Source: Burkholderiales bacterium
GTDB taxonomy: Bacteria; Pseudomonadota; Gammaproteobacteria; Burkholderiales; Casimicrobiaceae
DNA: 64,000 nt
Reading direction: 5' to 3'
Assembly: GCA_031270015.1 (NCBI GenBank)
Contig: JAISYH010000032.1
Location: 1 to 64,000, forward strand
Positions within the stretch are counted from its first letter, which is position 1; each line of letters opens with the position of its first letter. The notes under the pieces were generated by a model. The model saw only the letters and a program-made list of their open reading frames with translations, ran no database searches and was not told the origin of the DNA. The position numbers were made by a program, and so were the translations under genes. This document shows positions 18,765 to 38,634 of this stretch, piece by piece.

Positions 18765-20531
18765 ATGGATTTTTTCCGTAGCCAGCAAGACGCGCAACGG
18801 CGAACGATCGGCTTTTTATTATTATTCGTCGTTGTCGTTCTATTGGTTGCTTTTATATCTTCATATGTGGTGGTACGGCTCTTTTTCTTTGAAACAACGC
18901 AGATTTCGGATGTCGCCATATTGACGGTCGTTATATTGTGTATTATCGCCACAGGATGTCTCATTCGCGTCGTCATCCTACATCGTGAGGGTGGCGCGGC
19001 GGTGGCACACTCTTTAGGAGGGGAGTTATTGCCAGAAGCAGGAAACAGCGGAGAAGATGATAGATTGCACATTCAACGTTTTCGCAATATCGTTGAAGAG
19101 ATGTCGATAGCGTCGGGAACGCCGGCGCCGGCGCTTTACTGGTTGCCCAATGAAAGCTCGATCAATGCTTTCGTCGCGGGACTGTCGCCATCGGATGCCG
19201 TGTTAGCCGTGACGCGGGGCGCGCTGGAATGTCTCGATCGGAATGAATTGCAAGCTGTCGTCGCGCATGAGTTCGGGCATCTGCTCAATGGCGATATGCG
19301 CTTGAATACACGCGTGGCTTGTTGGCTTTTCGGTATTTTTTCTATTTATATCATCGGACGCTCCATTTTCAGAATACGCGCCAGGGCGAGCAGCGGCGAT
19401 TCTGCCAAAGCGTTCTTGTTAATATTGATTACTGGTCTGGCGTTAATGGCGATAGGCTATTTGGGAAAGATCGGCGGTCGTTTGTTGCAGGCGGCAATAT
19501 CGCGCCAGCGCGAATATTTGGCCGATGCTTCGGCGGTGCAATTCACGCGCCAGAAGGATGGGCTGGCAGGAGCGTTGAAAAAAATCTATTTTCTTTCATC
19601 GGAATTACAAACGGTCAATGCCGATAATTATAACCATTTGTTCTTGAACGACGGTGTCAAAATATCACGTTTATTTTCATCGCATCCTCCATTGCTGGAG
19701 CGTATTCGGAGATTGGATCCGTCGTTTCATCCCGAAATCGAAAGCATGAAATTGAGTCAAGCGCAAAACGGCGATTTTACGGAGCGTATGGATCATGCAA
19801 TTACGACGCAGTTCGCCGCGGAAAATTTGGCACAGAACGATACGACGTCAAGTATGCGAGACGAGTTGGCGTGGCTGTTTGCCGTTTTAATCGACAATAG
19901 TGATAAAGAAATTCAAGAGAAGCAACTTCGGCGAGTCGAAGCGGATTGGGGAGAATATGGCGTGACGGCGTTAGTACGCAAACTCGCCGGAGTCGCTTCC
20001 GCGCAGCCGGTTTATAGACGCCTCACTCGGCTTCGTGTCAGGTTGGCGCGTTTGCGTTATTTGTCAGCACAACAAAAAACGCAGCTTGAAAAAACGTTGT
20101 TTGCGTTAGTTACAGCTAATGAGGAAATTTCGTTACTTGAAGCGGCGGTGGCATATATGGTGCGTCGTTATCTCGACGATATAGAGCATCCGGCGCAAGC
20201 GGAAGTCGCCGGACATTTATCTTATGAGCAATGCCGGCAGTCGGTGGCGTTATTGAAAGTATTGGTTTCGGGGAATCCGCGCACCGCGCCGGAATACTTG
20301 ACACTCGTCACACTCGCCGGAGATTCCGGTCAAGAAGAACCATTGCGCGCGCGAGCGATGGAAAACGCGCTTGATCAACTCAATCGGCTTTCGTTTGAAG
20401 GTAGAAGGCGACTATTTCAAGAATTGGTGCAATCGTGCGGCGATGCCGTAAGCGAAGACCAATGGGAAATAATCGCTCTGATTGCGGTATGTTTACATGC
20501 ATCGCCTTTGTTGGAGGAATCGGACGAATGA
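18765..20531 (+). CDS. M48 family membrane metallopeptidase, copy 1
   Basis: A 588-residue integral membrane protease. Two hydrophobic helices lie at about residues 14-41 and 47-72. The HEFGH zinc motif is at 168-172 and the third-ligand region REYLADASAVQFTR is at 249-262, so the site looks complete; a further hydrophobic stretch lies at about 216-232. The C-terminal half (about 330-588) is helical, and its end (VSEDQWEIIALIAVCL) is reminiscent of TerB-like domains; that is inference. It is much longer than HtpX (about 290 residues). Stop and next start overlap (ATGA), so it is coupled to copy 2. Confidence 0.9.
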   Translation: MDFFRSQQDAQRRTIGFLLLFVVVVLLVAFISSYVVVRLFFFETTQISDVAILTVVILCIIATGCLIRVVILHREGGAAVAHSLGGELLPEAGNSGEDDRLHIQRFRNIVEEMSIASGTPAPALYWLPNESSINAFVAGLSPSDAVLAVTRGALECLDRNELQAVVAHEFGHLLNGDMRLNTRVACWLFGIFSIYIIGRSIFRIRARASSGDSAKAFLLILITGLALMAIGYLGKIGGRLLQAAISRQREYLADASAVQFTRQKDGLAGALKKIYFLSSELQTVNADNYNHLFLNDGVKISRLFSSHPPLLERIRRLDPSFHPEIESMKLSQAQNGDFTERMDHAITTQFAAENLAQNDTTSSMRDELAWLFAVLIDNSDKEIQEKQLRRVEADWGEYGVTALVRKLAGVASAQPVYRRLTRLRVRLARLRYLSAQQKTQLEKTLFALVTANEEISLLEAAVAYMVRRYLDDIEHPAQAEVAGHLSYEQCRQSVALLKVLVSGNPRTAPEYLTLVTLAGDSGQEEPLRARAMENALDQLNRLSFEGRRRLFQELVQSCGDAVSEDQWEIIALIAVCLHASPLLEESDE

Positions 20532-22354
20532 GTGACCATCAGCGTGTCGATTTTTTCAGAAACCAAAAAGAAGCGCGTCGACGCAGCGCGATATTCATTA
20601 TCGGTTTGCTGATTGTGGTGATTGGCGTATTGGTGTTGATTGCCGCGATTGTATGGCTGTTTATGTTATGGTCGGAGGGTGAAAAAGGAAAAACCACTTT
20701 TTTATTTTTGGCGGCAATAATAGGAATGACCATGATAGGCGGCTGCGCTATTCGTTTTTTCGAGTTACGCCGGTCGGGTGGCGCGTCGATTGCGCAACAT
20801 CTCGGTGGTGAACCTGTTCCGCAGTTGAACTTCGACGATTTCGAGCAAGAGATGATGTTCAAACGTTATATCAATATCGCTGAGGAAATATCTATTGTGT
20901 CGCGTGTACCGATGCCGTCTTTGTATTGGTTGCCGAATGAGAAAGCGATTAATGCTTTCGTCGCCGGATTGACGCATGCCGACGCGGTACTGGCGGTGAC
21001 GCGCGGCGCGCTGGAGAGATTGAATCGAGATGAGCTACAAGGAATCATTGCGCACGAGTTTAGTCATTTGTTGAACGGCGATATGCGCCTCAACACGCAG
21101 ACATCCAGTTTATTGTTCGGTTTGCACGCCATTTATGTCTACGGACGGGCAATTATCAGATTCGTTCGTTGTCCTCTGGGCGAATTTCAGGATGAAAAAA
21201 CGGTTGGGTTTTTATTTTCGCCGTTGTTGATTCTTTTTGGCGCAACGTTAAAAGTTTTAGGTTATATCGGTCATTTAAGCGGAAGGATACTGCAGGCTGC
21301 CGCGTTGAGGCAACGGGAGTATCTGGCGGATGCGTTCGCCGTGCAGTTTACGCGGCACGTAAATGGAATTGCCGGTGCGCTCAAGAAAATTTACTACGAT
21401 TCGTCTATGATTTTTTCTCCTGAGGCGGATAATTACAATTATTTTTTCTTCGCCGAAGCGGTCGATCTTTCATGTTTGTTGGCGTCGCATCCGCCGCTTG
21501 TCGAACGGATCCAAGCGTTGGATGGTAAATTCAATCCGGAGGACAGTATTCCCGCGCGTATCGATACCGCGTTGGATGTCGATACGCTCCATCAAACGTT
21601 GCCAATGTGTTTTTCTTCAGATTCTAGGGTAGGATCGGCGGAGACCTTTGGGATGCGCGACGGAGTGACGTTGATTTTTTCCTACTTACTGGATGAGCAC
21701 GACAAAAGCGTTCGCCATCGACAAATCCGTCTCATCGAGCAAGACTGGGAATACGATGTTGCCATGCAAACAAATATTCTCTTTAGGAAATATAGATATG
21801 ACCCCGTTTACCGAAAGCTGATGCGCCTCAGAATTTTTCTCGTACATTTGCATAAGTTGTCCGAGCCGCAGAGGAAACGATTGAAGTCGACCATAGTCGG
21901 GCTGATTGCCGCCAATCAGCAAATATCTTTGCTCGAGGCAGCGATAGCCTATATGGTGCAACATTATCTTACCGATATGAATCAGCCCGGCAAAGTGAAA
22001 ATATCCGGTCATGTCGTTTACGATAGCTGCCGGGAAGCAATCGAGTTACTGAAAATATTGGTGCGGGAAAACAGAAAGAATGCGCCCGGGCAGATTGCGT
22101 TGAATGGATTGAGCGATGGAAATCCGAATGCGCCTGACGCGCAAAAATTGGAAGAAGCGTTGGATCATCTCAACGGGCTTTCGATGGAAGGCAAGAAGCG
22201 TTTTTTTCAGGAATTGACGCAATCGTGCGCCACGTCTTATCTGAGTGAAGATCAGCAGGAAATATTGTCGTTGGTTGCCGTGTGTTTGCACGCGCCGCCA
22301 CTGGATTTGCTGGTCGATCATGTTGGTAACAGATTCACATTATTGCCTGTTTGA
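20528..22354 (+). CDS. M48 family membrane metallopeptidase, copy 2
   Basis: A 608-residue paralogue of the preceding gene, starting at the overlapping ATGA at 20528. It has the same plan: charged FFRNQKEARRR start, two membrane helices (about 20-47 and 56-78), HEFSH at 176-180, REYLADAFAVQFTR, and a helical C-terminal half ending in LSEDQQEILSLVAVCLHAPP. Blocks such as LYWLPNE, INAFVAGL, AVLAVTRGALE and LLNGDMRLNT are shared with copy 1, so the pair arose by tandem duplication. Both zinc sites look intact, so both may be active. An in-frame ATG at 20435 would lie inside copy 1 and is rejected. Confidence 0.9.
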   Translation: MSDHQRVDFFRNQKEARRRSAIFIIGLLIVVIGVLVLIAAIVWLFMLWSEGEKGKTTFLFLAAIIGMTMIGGCAIRFFELRRSGGASIAQHLGGEPVPQLNFDDFEQEMMFKRYINIAEEISIVSRVPMPSLYWLPNEKAINAFVAGLTHADAVLAVTRGALERLNRDELQGIIAHEFSHLLNGDMRLNTQTSSLLFGLHAIYVYGRAIIRFVRCPLGEFQDEKTVGFLFSPLLILFGATLKVLGYIGHLSGRILQAAALRQREYLADAFAVQFTRHVNGIAGALKKIYYDSSMIFSPEADNYNYFFFAEAVDLSCLLASHPPLVERIQALDGKFNPEDSIPARIDTALDVDTLHQTLPMCFSSDSRVGSAETFGMRDGVTLIFSYLLDEHDKSVRHRQIRLIEQDWEYDVAMQTNILFRKYRYDPVYRKLMRLRIFLVHLHKLSEPQRKRLKSTIVGLIAANQQISLLEAAIAYMVQHYLTDMNQPGKVKISGHVVYDSCREAIELLKILVRENRKNAPGQIALNGLSDGNPNAPDAQKLEEALDHLNGLSMEGKKRFFQELTQSCATSYLSEDQQEILSLVAVCLHAPPLDLLVDHVGNRFTLLPV

Positions 22355-34331: not shown

Positions 34332-35630
34332 ATGGATTCCTTGATAATTTTGAAAGCAAAAAGCGCGCGAGGCGTTTGCCATTTGCCTGGTTCGAAAAGC
34401 ATTTCCAACCGCGTATTACTGTTGGCTTCGTTATGTGAAAAACCGACGATATTACGATCGCTTTTAAACGCGGATGATGTGCGTTTCATGCGTGATGCTT
34501 TATCGCGGCTTGGCGTTGGTGTCGAATCTTTGGGTGGCGATGATTGGCGAATTATCGGCAACGACGGACGGTTTAAGGAAAAGAGCGCTAAATTATTTTT
34601 AGGTAATGCAGGGACGGCGGTACGTCCATTGACTGCAGTACTTGCGGTATTGGGCGGCAATTATGAGATTGACGGCGTTATGCGGATGCGTGAACGCCCG
34701 ATTACCGATCTCATCGACGCATTGCGGATGTTGGGTTGTCATATTGATTACTGCGACAAATCTGGTTTTCTTCCTTTGCGTATTGAACCGCGTAATTTGT
34801 CAATCTTTCCTGAGAAAGTGACTGTTCGCGGTGACGTATCGAGCCAATTTTTATCTGCATTGTTGATGGCGTTACCATTATTGCCTAAAGACGAAAAGAT
34901 GTTTACGGAAGTCGAATTGAGTACGCCGTTGATTTCTCGTCCTTATGTGGAAATCACGATGCATTTGATGGCGCGTTTTGGAGTCATAGTCGAAATGTCG
35001 AATGCCGATAGGTTCCGGGTACCGCGTGGTATCACGTATCGTAGCCCGGATGAAATAATAGTCGAGAGTGACGCGTCATCGGCATCCTATTTTATCGCTG
35101 CCGGAGTTTTGGGAGGTGGACCGATACGGATTTGTGGCGTTGGTCGTGATTCGATACAAGGAGATATTGCTTTTGCTGAATTCTTGCGTCAACAAGGCGC
35201 AAATATCTTGTTGGCGGATAATTATATTGATGCGCGAATCGGCAAGCCGTTTGTGGGTGGTGAAATCAATTGTATTGCCATTCCTGACGCTGCAATGACT
35301 TTAGCGATGACTGCCCTAAAAGCGCAGACGCCGACGACGTTGACGCATATCGGGAGCTGGCGTGTGAAAGAAACAGATCGAATTAGCGCGATGAGTACTG
35401 AATTACGTAAAACCGGCGCACGAGTAGAAAGCGGCGCTGATTGGCTTAAAATTTTTCCGGCGGAGACATTGCGACATGCCAAGATCGATACTTACGATGA
35501 TCATCGGATGGCGATGTGTTTTTCTTTATTGGCGCTTCTGGATACCGATGTGACGATCAACGATCCTAAGACGGTGAGTAAGACTTTTCCGGGTTATTTC
35601 GACGAATATAAAAAATTACTGCGATACTGA
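34332..35630 (+). CDS. aroA: 3-phosphoshikimate 1-carboxyvinyltransferase AroA (EPSP synthase)
   Basis: Shikimate-pathway enzyme joining shikimate-3-phosphate and PEP. The 432-residue protein has the N-terminal LPGSKSISNRVLLLASL, the class I motif LFLGNAGTAVRPLTA, RMRERPITDLIDAL, SSQFLSALLMALP, and KETDRISAMSTEL plus YDDHRMAMCFSLLAL near the C-terminus. It begins 2 bp after the tamB stop, so it is probably co-transcribed with tamAB. In betaproteobacteria aroA usually sits with tyrA/cmk/rpsA, so the location is unusual. Confidence 0.95.
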   Translation: MDSLIILKAKSARGVCHLPGSKSISNRVLLLASLCEKPTILRSLLNADDVRFMRDALSRLGVGVESLGGDDWRIIGNDGRFKEKSAKLFLGNAGTAVRPLTAVLAVLGGNYEIDGVMRMRERPITDLIDALRMLGCHIDYCDKSGFLPLRIEPRNLSIFPEKVTVRGDVSSQFLSALLMALPLLPKDEKMFTEVELSTPLISRPYVEITMHLMARFGVIVEMSNADRFRVPRGITYRSPDEIIVESDASSASYFIAAGVLGGGPIRICGVGRDSIQGDIAFAEFLRQQGANILLADNYIDARIGKPFVGGEINCIAIPDAAMTLAMTALKAQTPTTLTHIGSWRVKETDRISAMSTELRKTGARVESGADWLKIFPAETLRHAKIDTYDDHRMAMCFSLLALLDTDVTINDPKTVSKTFPGYFDEYKKLLRY

Positions 35631-35638
35631 TGAAACGG

Positions 35639-36100
35639 TCAATCGCAATCAGTGACTCTCTCGAATAGCGAAAGGATCGCCTCGCGATTGGACGGTGAAA
35701 ATGCTTTTTCAGCGGCGTTGATTGCTGGAAGCCATAGATACCGATTGTGTTCGCGCCGTTCCAGAGCGATTGAACATATTTGAGGAACGCGGAAAGAGAA
35801 CCAATGTTCAATATTGTGGGTAGTATTCGGTGAATAGCGATGCCGCCATTGAGGGTAGATTTCATAACGTACCTCGTGTTTTAGATCGGTCAGCACGCCA
35901 TCGAGGCTTGCGTTTAATCCTGTTTCTTCATGTAGTTCGCGCACGGCGGTATCGGTAAAAGATTCGCCAGATTCGATACTTCCGGTCACGGACTGCCAGA
36001 ATCCACAAAAATCGGAACGTTCCAAAAGAAGTACTTTTCGTTCTGGCGTATAAACGATTACCAATACTGAAAACGGTTGCTTAACATGACGGTACATCAT
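35639..36100 (-). CDS. nudB: Dihydroneopterin triphosphate diphosphatase NudB
   Basis: NUDIX hydrolase that takes dihydroneopterin triphosphate to the monophosphate in folate synthesis. The box runs GSIESGESFTDTAVRELHEETGL. FSVLVIVYTPERKVLLLER and the acidic/aromatic DFCGFWQSVTGS stretch match NudB, as do EIYPQWRHRY and EHWFSFRV further on. The ATGATG start touches the stop of the barstar-like gene, so it is translated from the same message. It converges with aroA, 8 bp away. Confidence 0.87.
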   Translation of the reverse strand: MMYRHVKQPFSVLVIVYTPERKVLLLERSDFCGFWQSVTGSIESGESFTDTAVRELHEETGLNASLDGVLTDLKHEVRYEIYPQWRHRYSPNTTHNIEHWFSFRVPQICSIALERREHNRYLWLPAINAAEKAFSPSNREAILSLFERVTDCD

Positions 36101-36505
36101 TTAACGCGTGTGGTCGATGAAAACCCAAAATGGGGTGTCCAACGAACGCCAATAATCAATGACTTCTTCCAGAGTTTCGTGCAACATTTGCCAATCGTAT
36201 ACGGTTCGGCTTTGTAGAAGTGCAGTATGTTTCAAATGCAAAACTACGCCGTGCTCATCGATCCAATCATCGTCACACAAAACGTCGTAAAGCGCGTCCC
36301 AGTTATATCCAAAGTAATCGGGAAATTCGAGCGCGTCGGCAAATAAATTCAGAAGTTGCTTTTTATTAAGAATATTTTCACAATTGACGGGATAGTAGCG
36401 TAATGACGACTGTCGACACGCCTCATGGAATTTTTCGACAGCGTTGGCGGTATTAATGTGACGGATGTCAGCACGTTTGGCATCATCGAGATTGATCGGT
36501 TTCAT
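36101..36505 (-). CDS. Barstar-family RNase inhibitor
   Basis: A 134-residue cytoplasmic protein with a C-terminal barstar domain (about residues 40-130). The hallmark FPDYFGYNWDALYDVLCDD (helix that plugs the RNase active site) is clear, and the ending PFWVFIDH fits a barstar beta strand. The start at 36505 is chosen because upstream codons read the RNase gene in another frame; it overlaps that gene by 23 bp, which suggests coupled translation. No signal peptide is present, so it would act inside the cell on RNase before export. Confidence 0.85.
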   Translation of the reverse strand: MKPINLDDAKRADIRHINTANAVEKFHEACRQSSLRYYPVNCENILNKKQLLNLFADALEFPDYFGYNWDALYDVLCDDDWIDEHGVVLHLKHTALLQSRTVYDWQMLHETLEEVIDYWRSLDTPFWVFIDHTR

Positions 36506-36884
36506 CACGAATTTCCTTAAAACTTTGGTAATGATCATTTGTGTAATAACAAATATCCGGTTGTCGGGGTTTCTGTCCGCCGCAGACGATACGGCACGCG
36601 CCGCGGTCTTTTGCCGTCGGCGTAGTGACAGTATATTCTCGATAATAGCCGTTCGTTTTTTCGGGAAGCAGCTTTTCCCGATTATAAAAGGTAGCGCCAT
36701 CTTGACGGTAAGGGAAAGGACCACCTTTGAGAATTAATGCATAAGTTTCGTGAGCCTCGACGGGAAGTTCGTGTAGCGCGACCCCACTGGCAGGCAATAA
36801 TTCCGTCTGTTTCGTGCAACCGCAAAGGGCGGTCAAAAACAAGAACAATATCGGAATGACGCGATAAATGGCTTGGATAAACAT
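36483..36884 (-). CDS. Barnase/RNase Sa-type ribonuclease with lipoprotein signal
   Basis: A 133-residue guanyl-specific RNase of the N1/T1 (barnase) superfamily. Key stretches are GGPFPYRQDGATFYNRE, YYREYTVTTPT (catalytic Glu, residue 83), GACRIVCGG (Arg 98) and TNDHYQSFKEI (catalytic His 118), so the active site looks intact. The N-terminus is a membrane-export signal ending LCGC at residues 20-23, a plausible lipobox that would anchor it as a lipoprotein (C23), which differs from the freely secreted barnase. The barstar-like gene follows immediately. Confidence 0.85.
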   Translation of the reverse strand: MFIQAIYRVIPILFLFLTALCGCTKQTELLPASGVALHELPVEAHETYALILKGGPFPYRQDGATFYNREKLLPEKTNGYYREYTVTTPTAKDRGACRIVCGGQKPRQPDICYYTNDHYQSFKEIRDETDQSR

Positions 36885-36919
36885 AGGCTAGAAAGCAGAA
36901 AATCGATAACGGTAAGATT

Positions 36920-36940
36920 AGTATACGACGGCGAAACACT
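36920..36940 (-). promoter_or_regulatory. Possible -10 element ahead of the RNase gene
   Basis: Reading the minus strand, TATACT (36925 to 36920) lies about 35 nt upstream of the RNase ATG and matches a -10 box at five of six positions. No good -35 is seen at 17 bp. It could allow the RNase-barstar-nudB set to be expressed apart from the transporter operon. Confidence 0.2.
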
Positions 36941-38634
36941 CAAGCGTGCGATAAAATTCCCCGTGGAATGGAGTCCAGTAGTTGTTGCGTATAGTCACTT
37001 TTCGGGTTTTGAAATATTTCTCTAATATTTCCGATTTCGGTCGCTTCGCCTTGCCGCATTACCATGACGTTGTCGCAAAGAAAATGGACGACGGCGAGGT
37101 CGTGCGAGATAAAAAGGTAGGAAATACCGAAATCGTCTTGAATGTCTTTAAGTAAATTCAATATTTGTGCTTGAACGGACACATCGAGCGCGGATACCGG
37201 CTCATCGAGAATCAAAAGATCGGGGCGAACGGTGAGCGCACGTGCCAATGCGATTCGCTGACGCTGTCCGCCCGAGAATTCGTGGGGGAATTTGTAAAAT
37301 ACGTCATGACTCAAGCCAACTCGCGACAACCAATCAAGAGCTTGTTCAATAGCGGTTTTTCGATCTGGAGCGACGCGATGTAAAAGGATGGGTTCGATCA
37401 GACTTTGCCCGACAGTAAATCGAGGATTGAGCGACGCATAAGGATTTTGAAAAACGATTTGCATACGACGACGAAACGGGAGGAATTCTTGATCGGACAG
37501 AGAAAAAATAGCTTGTCTGTCGAAAGTGACGTTGCCTTGGGTTGCTCGGCGCAGGCGTAACAGCGTCAAACCCAATGTCGTTTTTCCCGAACCGGATTCT
37601 CCGACGATGCCAAGTGTTTGCCCACGACGCAAAGTGAACGAAATATTTTTAACGGCAGGAATTTCGTATTTTCGCCATAAACCGTCATGTCTGAAAAAGC
37701 TTTTATATATCTTGTCCGCATGTAATAAGATGGGTGGGTTTCGGTTCTCGATAGTTTTTTTCACTATATCGGAATGAACGCGCGAGCGTTCGCCGAGGAA
37801 ATCTTCGATTACTGGTAAACGATTCGGGAAGTCGTCGATGGTCGGTCGGCATTGCAACAGCGCTCGCGTATAATGATCTTGTGGATTGAGAAAAATTTGC
37901 GATGTATCGCCTTGTTCACGAATGGAGCCATGACGCATGACGACGATACGGTCAGCAATTTCGCCAACCAATGCAAGATCGTGCGAAATAAATAATATGG
38001 ACATTTGATGCCGCGCTTTCAATTTTTTTAGGAGCGCGATAATTTGTTTTTGAACAGTAACGTCAAGCGCGGTGGTTGGTTCATCGGCGATCAACAAACG
38101 CGGTTCACACGCTAACGCCATTGCGATCATCACGCGTTGTTGTTGTCCTCCCGAGAGTTGACCGGGGAAATGCGTCGTCGTCCGTTCGGGGTCGGGCAAA
38201 CCGACTTCATCAAGAAGCTGAATACATCGTTGTCGCGCGGCAGTACGTGAAAAATGGCGCTTGAAACGCAATACTTCGATAATTTGATTGCCGACGGTCA
38301 TCACCGGGTTAAGCGAAGTCATCGGCTCTTGGAATATCATCGCGAAATCGGCACCACGCATTTTCCGTCTTTCGTTTTCAGAAATCGAGAGGATGTTTCT
38401 TTCGTGATACATGATGCGGCTCGATACAGGTATTTGAGTAACGATATTGGGGAGCAATCCTATAATAGCCAATGCCGTCACACTTTTCCCCGAACCAGAT
38501 TCGCCGACAATCGCCAATGTTTCATTTTCTCGAATGGCGAAGGAAATATCATTGACGGCAATGAACGGGTTCCGTTGTCGCCGCCGAAATGCGATACTGA
38601 GATGCTCAATGAAAAAAAGCGTATCCGCCGTCAT
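36940..38634 (-). CDS. Peptide-type ABC transporter, fused two-domain ATPase
   Basis: A 564-residue protein with two complete ABC cassettes, as in YejF or fused OppD-OppF. Cassette 1 has [28 protein letters not shown] and Walker [10 protein letters not shown]. Cassette 2 has [27 protein letters not shown] and [12 protein letters not shown]. It energises import of peptides or similar solutes through the two permeases encoded just upstream. Its start overlaps the preceding permease stop by 4 bp. It is the last transporter gene before the RNase gene. Confidence 0.93.

Follow-up and report, generated by a model that had tools for sequence, protein, structure and literature searches.

An RNase Sa-type ribonuclease gene overlapping a barstar gene in a Casimicrobiaceae bacterium: a common kind of pair with a possible lipobox

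The RNase Sa enzymes of Streptomyces are freely secreted, and it is textbook knowledge of the barnase/barstar system that a barstar kept inside the cell protects the producer. Barstar controls the secreted RNase from inside the cell, and its residues Asp35, Asp39 and Glu76 take part in barnase binding (PMC8837141). Simple barnase-barstar gene pairs are widely distributed (PMC3482391). For a lipid-anchored nuclease there is a precedent in the Mycoplasma membrane lipoprotein nuclease MnuA which, in the sections of the source relied on here, serves nucleotide acquisition and was assayed on DNA, those sections mentioning no inhibitor partner; both the enzyme and the envelope type differ from those of the RNase described below (PMC11729948).

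The window, which is the whole analysed stretch of 64,000 nucleotides, carries an RNase gene followed by a barstar gene and then nudB. The features are as follows.

36483..36884, minus strand: RNase Sa-type ribonuclease, 133 amino acids, predicted to be exported and guanyl-specific (PF00545, RNase Sa3 match, AlphaFold, conservation)
36816..36884, minus strand: signal sequence with lipobox-like L20-C21-G22-C23, SPase II cut predicted before Cys23 (sequence)
36101..36505, minus strand: barstar-family inhibitor (by family), 134 amino acids, without export signal (PF01337, AlphaFold, Asp70/Asp74)
36483..36505, minus strand: 23-bp overlap of the RNase 3' end and the barstar 5' end (sequence)
35639..36100, minus strand: nudB (dihydroneopterin triphosphate diphosphatase), directly after barstar (NF006961, E 3.1e-57)

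Both proteins match their families far beyond chance, which bears out the preliminary description of a barnase/RNase Sa-fold ribonuclease with a barstar partner. The RNase matches PF00545 with E 2.7e-22 (79.6 bits against a curated cut-off of 24). Its best solved relative is RNase Sa3 (E 6e-25); the match to barnase is weak (E about 0.04). The AlphaFold model resembles RNase Sa2/Sa3 (TM-score by target length 0.90), with about 47-51% identity over the RNase domain in Foldseek alignments. Fold and catalytic Glu, Arg and His are thus those of RNase Sa, Sa2 and Sa3 of Streptomyces, also PF00545 members, from which the window RNase differs in its possible lipobox and in its cysteine pair (C101-C112). 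The genome has a single RNase of the PF00545 family and a single barstar.

Of 399 genomes sampled from the order (called Burkholderiales-type betaproteobacteria by record titles), 152 carry PF00545, as do 55 of 64 in a family sample and 21 of 299 in a phylum-wide sample. Within the genus it is present in nine of 11 genomes, and the two without it are incomplete (73 and 84% completeness). Named relatives with the RNase include Acidovorax, Variovorax, Limnohabitans, Zoogloea and Aromatoleum, among others. At 138 of 141 loci, a set that includes four duplicates of genomes counted already, a barstar gene comes after the RNase gene, and the remaining three lie at contig ends. Two distant PF00545 loci (L042 and L045; E about 1e-11 to 1e-12) also show a barstar-like gene close by, and their RNases score weakly or not at all against a close-family model. 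Our literature searches found no experimental work specific to betaproteobacterial RNase-barstar pairs and nothing specific on barstar essentiality.

The catalytic residues, recognized earlier by type, are Glu83, Arg98 and His118, kept in 138, 141 and 140 of 141 related sequences, respectively, and Glu70 is a putative guanine-site residue. C101 and C112 are both present in 124 and both absent in 17 of the 141 relatives. This co-occurrence suggests a likely disulfide, which in turn suggests that the RNase is exported. Two departures in individual genomes were also observed. The window RNase has Cys97 where 129 of 141 relatives have Arg; it is apparently unpaired, and no other examined genome has it. 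In one genus member (G010, locus L038), Asp takes the place of the catalytic Glu (YYRDYTV), and this enzyme may be weakened.

The inhibitor matches PF01337 with E 1.6e-24 (86.1 bits against a cut-off of 23.4), and its AlphaFold model matches solved barstar structures. Its Asp70 and Asp74 align with barstar Asp35 and Asp39; of 141 related sequences, 140 retain the first and 139 the second. No export signal is visible in the barstar sequence, in line with the earlier description. RNase Sa and barstar also occur together as chains of PDB entry 1ay7, which speaks for reading the two proteins as a pair. As in Bacillus amyloliquefaciens, an RNase that is exported (here by prediction) would be matched by an intracellular inhibitor with the Asp35/Asp39 equivalents kept. 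Relative to that system, the window RNase belongs to the Sa branch, the inhibitor is extended at its N-terminus, and the inhibitor gene overlaps the RNase gene.

The overlap is exactly 23 bp, as first reported, when barstar is read from its ATG at position 36505, which is immediately preceded by a GTG codon. In all nine genus members having the gene, the overlap is 20 or 23 bp. A ribosome-binding-like AAGGA stands just upstream of the overlap, within the RNase gene; inspection of the sequence upstream of the RNase ATG found no clear ribosome-binding site. The nudB ATG abuts the barstar stop codon. Promoter and terminator scans gave nothing above chance level, and the layout of RNase, barstar and nudB is compatible with a single transcript.

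That nudB comes next after barstar was correctly read at the outset, and the expectation of the same three-gene order elsewhere holds in part. The order recurs in 56 loci, which span the genus, the greater part of the family and some other lineages, Zoogloea, Aromatoleum and Sulfuritalea among them; it is not found in Comamonadaceae-type genomes, where nudB does not lie next to the pair. We therefore reject a functional part of nudB in the system: outside the window's family and certain other lineages it does not adjoin the pair, and it is probably a neighbour outside the RNase-barstar mechanism. In the window (within 34332-38634) and in its sister G009, the three genes stand between oppDF and aroA. 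Six of the nine genus members have an aspS-like gene upstream, and in a seventh a contig ends there; we take this gene to be aspS from its protein sequence, not from a database match. Because the location differs in this way, RNase, barstar and nudB have moved as a unit. Elsewhere in the window, at 18765-22354, two adjacent and similar long genes carry an HEFxH zinc-peptidase-like motif (M48-like by eye) and are apparently a tandem duplication.

The preliminary description had also proposed that an LCGC lipobox tethers the RNase to the envelope. The lipobox itself stands for the window protein, whose N-terminus, MFIQAIYRVIPILFLFLTALCGC, has a positive n-region and L-C-G-C behind a hydrophobic stretch. 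LCGC fits only the permissive lipobox pattern [LVI]x[GAS]C, with cysteine at position -2, and cysteine is uncommon there. A pattern search found no SPase-I-like [AVSTG]xA site in the window RNase. Since LCGC fits the lipobox and an SPase-I-like site is absent, predicted cleavage by SPase II is the best reading for this protein. The tether is not supported as a defining trait of the system. Among 124 relatives from outside the genus whose hydrophobic region is clear, 118 carry an SPase-I-like site and five a lipobox-like match; these sites were called by simple patterns of our own, not by SignalP, and the lipobox counts rest on orthologues only. Most relatives probably have their RNase cut by signal peptidase I. 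Within the genus, a strict lipobox was counted in three of nine members (LCGC in the window, LTAC in G002, LSAC in G003) and cysteine at the position in six, the other three of these reading LPAC, LSTC and LWMC; one further member has AHA (an SPase I site), and two have no cysteine. The lipobox is thus not conserved among orthologues; such conservation is supportive and does not strictly define a single protein.

Read at its fullest, this evidence would describe a functional lipid-anchored envelope RNase, cut by SPase II before Cys23, lipidated and placed at the outer membrane in a dedicated role. We regard this as a real possibility that falls somewhat short of probable. Beyond the window protein's own site, the lipoboxes of G002 and G003 speak for it, as do the linker rich in Pro, Glu and Thr that often follows the cysteine in genus members having one, and the presence of both lspA and lgt in the genome. 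It is weakened by the rarity of lipobox matches outside the genus, by ACA in G002, G003 and G010, which can be read as an SPase I site too, and by the variation among the remaining genus members. The nearest relative, G009, has no cysteine at the lipobox position, and the window groups with it in a three-protein tree (support is low within the other genus clade). Because genus sites vary and this sister has no cysteine, the lipobox appears labile, and lipid anchoring would be a lineage-specific possibility and not a conserved property of the system. A broader proposal strikes us as unlikely: that the RNase Sa of this genus, originally periplasmic or secreted, became tethered to the envelope, by a lipobox (window, G002, G003) or possibly by an uncleaved signal anchor (G004, G009) and in several members with an extended linker, to give a cell-bound RNase with a dedicated inhibitor. 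Linker length varies widely in the genus, and the G003 RNase (L030) has a long Pro/Glu/Ala-rich linker between signal sequence and RNase domain. A literature search on membrane-anchored RNase lipoproteins returned nothing relevant, Mycoplasma lipoprotein nucleases being the nearest precedent.

Two further readings concern the use of the RNase against cells. The overlap of RNase and inhibitor genes would suit an intracellular toxin-antitoxin module, which we nevertheless consider very improbable: nearly all relatives have a hydrophobic signal sequence on the RNase, its cysteine pair fits export, and we reject the module on the signal sequence together with the conserved context. Contact-dependent antagonism, raised in the preliminary description, would turn the RNase into a contact-dependent or polymorphic toxin that is delivered to rival cells, with barstar as its immunity gene. 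Polymorphic toxins do use barnase-like domains paired with Imm-Barstar (PMC3482391), yet a domain search found that the 133-amino acid RNase consists of a signal sequence and one RNase domain and nothing more, with no delivery domain, repeats or variable cassettes, and there is one conserved pair in a housekeeping context (the aspS-like gene and nudB). Architecture and context lend this suggestion no support, and we reject it, giving it hardly any credence.

What we find very probable is a barnase/barstar-type pair of the usual kind, belonging to the RNase Sa branch, with a Sec-exported RNase, a cytosolic barstar and RNA breakdown outside the cytoplasm. The RNase would be made with a Sec signal and act in the periplasm, at the outer membrane or in the medium, cutting RNA, probably after guanine. 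Translation of barstar would be coupled to that of the RNase through the overlap, and barstar would remain cytosolic and block RNase molecules that do not leave. The signal peptide of this species' RNase probably has a lipobox, and the enzyme may be lipid-held on the envelope. The most likely role would be extracytoplasmic RNA breakdown for nutrients; a weak point for nutrient scavenging is that the genome gave no match to the 5'-nucleotidase C-terminal domain.

Protection of the producer by barstar is not new. Toxin-then-immunity order, single RNase domain and Imm-Barstar are shared with the simple barnase-barstar pairs (PMC3482391), with no essential difference, the possible lipobox being lineage-specific. 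The gene pair is real and of a known and common kind, and its sole unusual point is the lipobox, which is plausible for this species. The locus adds a well-conserved RNase Sa-barstar pair to that kind and documents how common such pairs are in the order. Should the RNase indeed carry a lipid anchor, it would stay bound to the cell, unlike the other known enzymes of its family, which are freely secreted.
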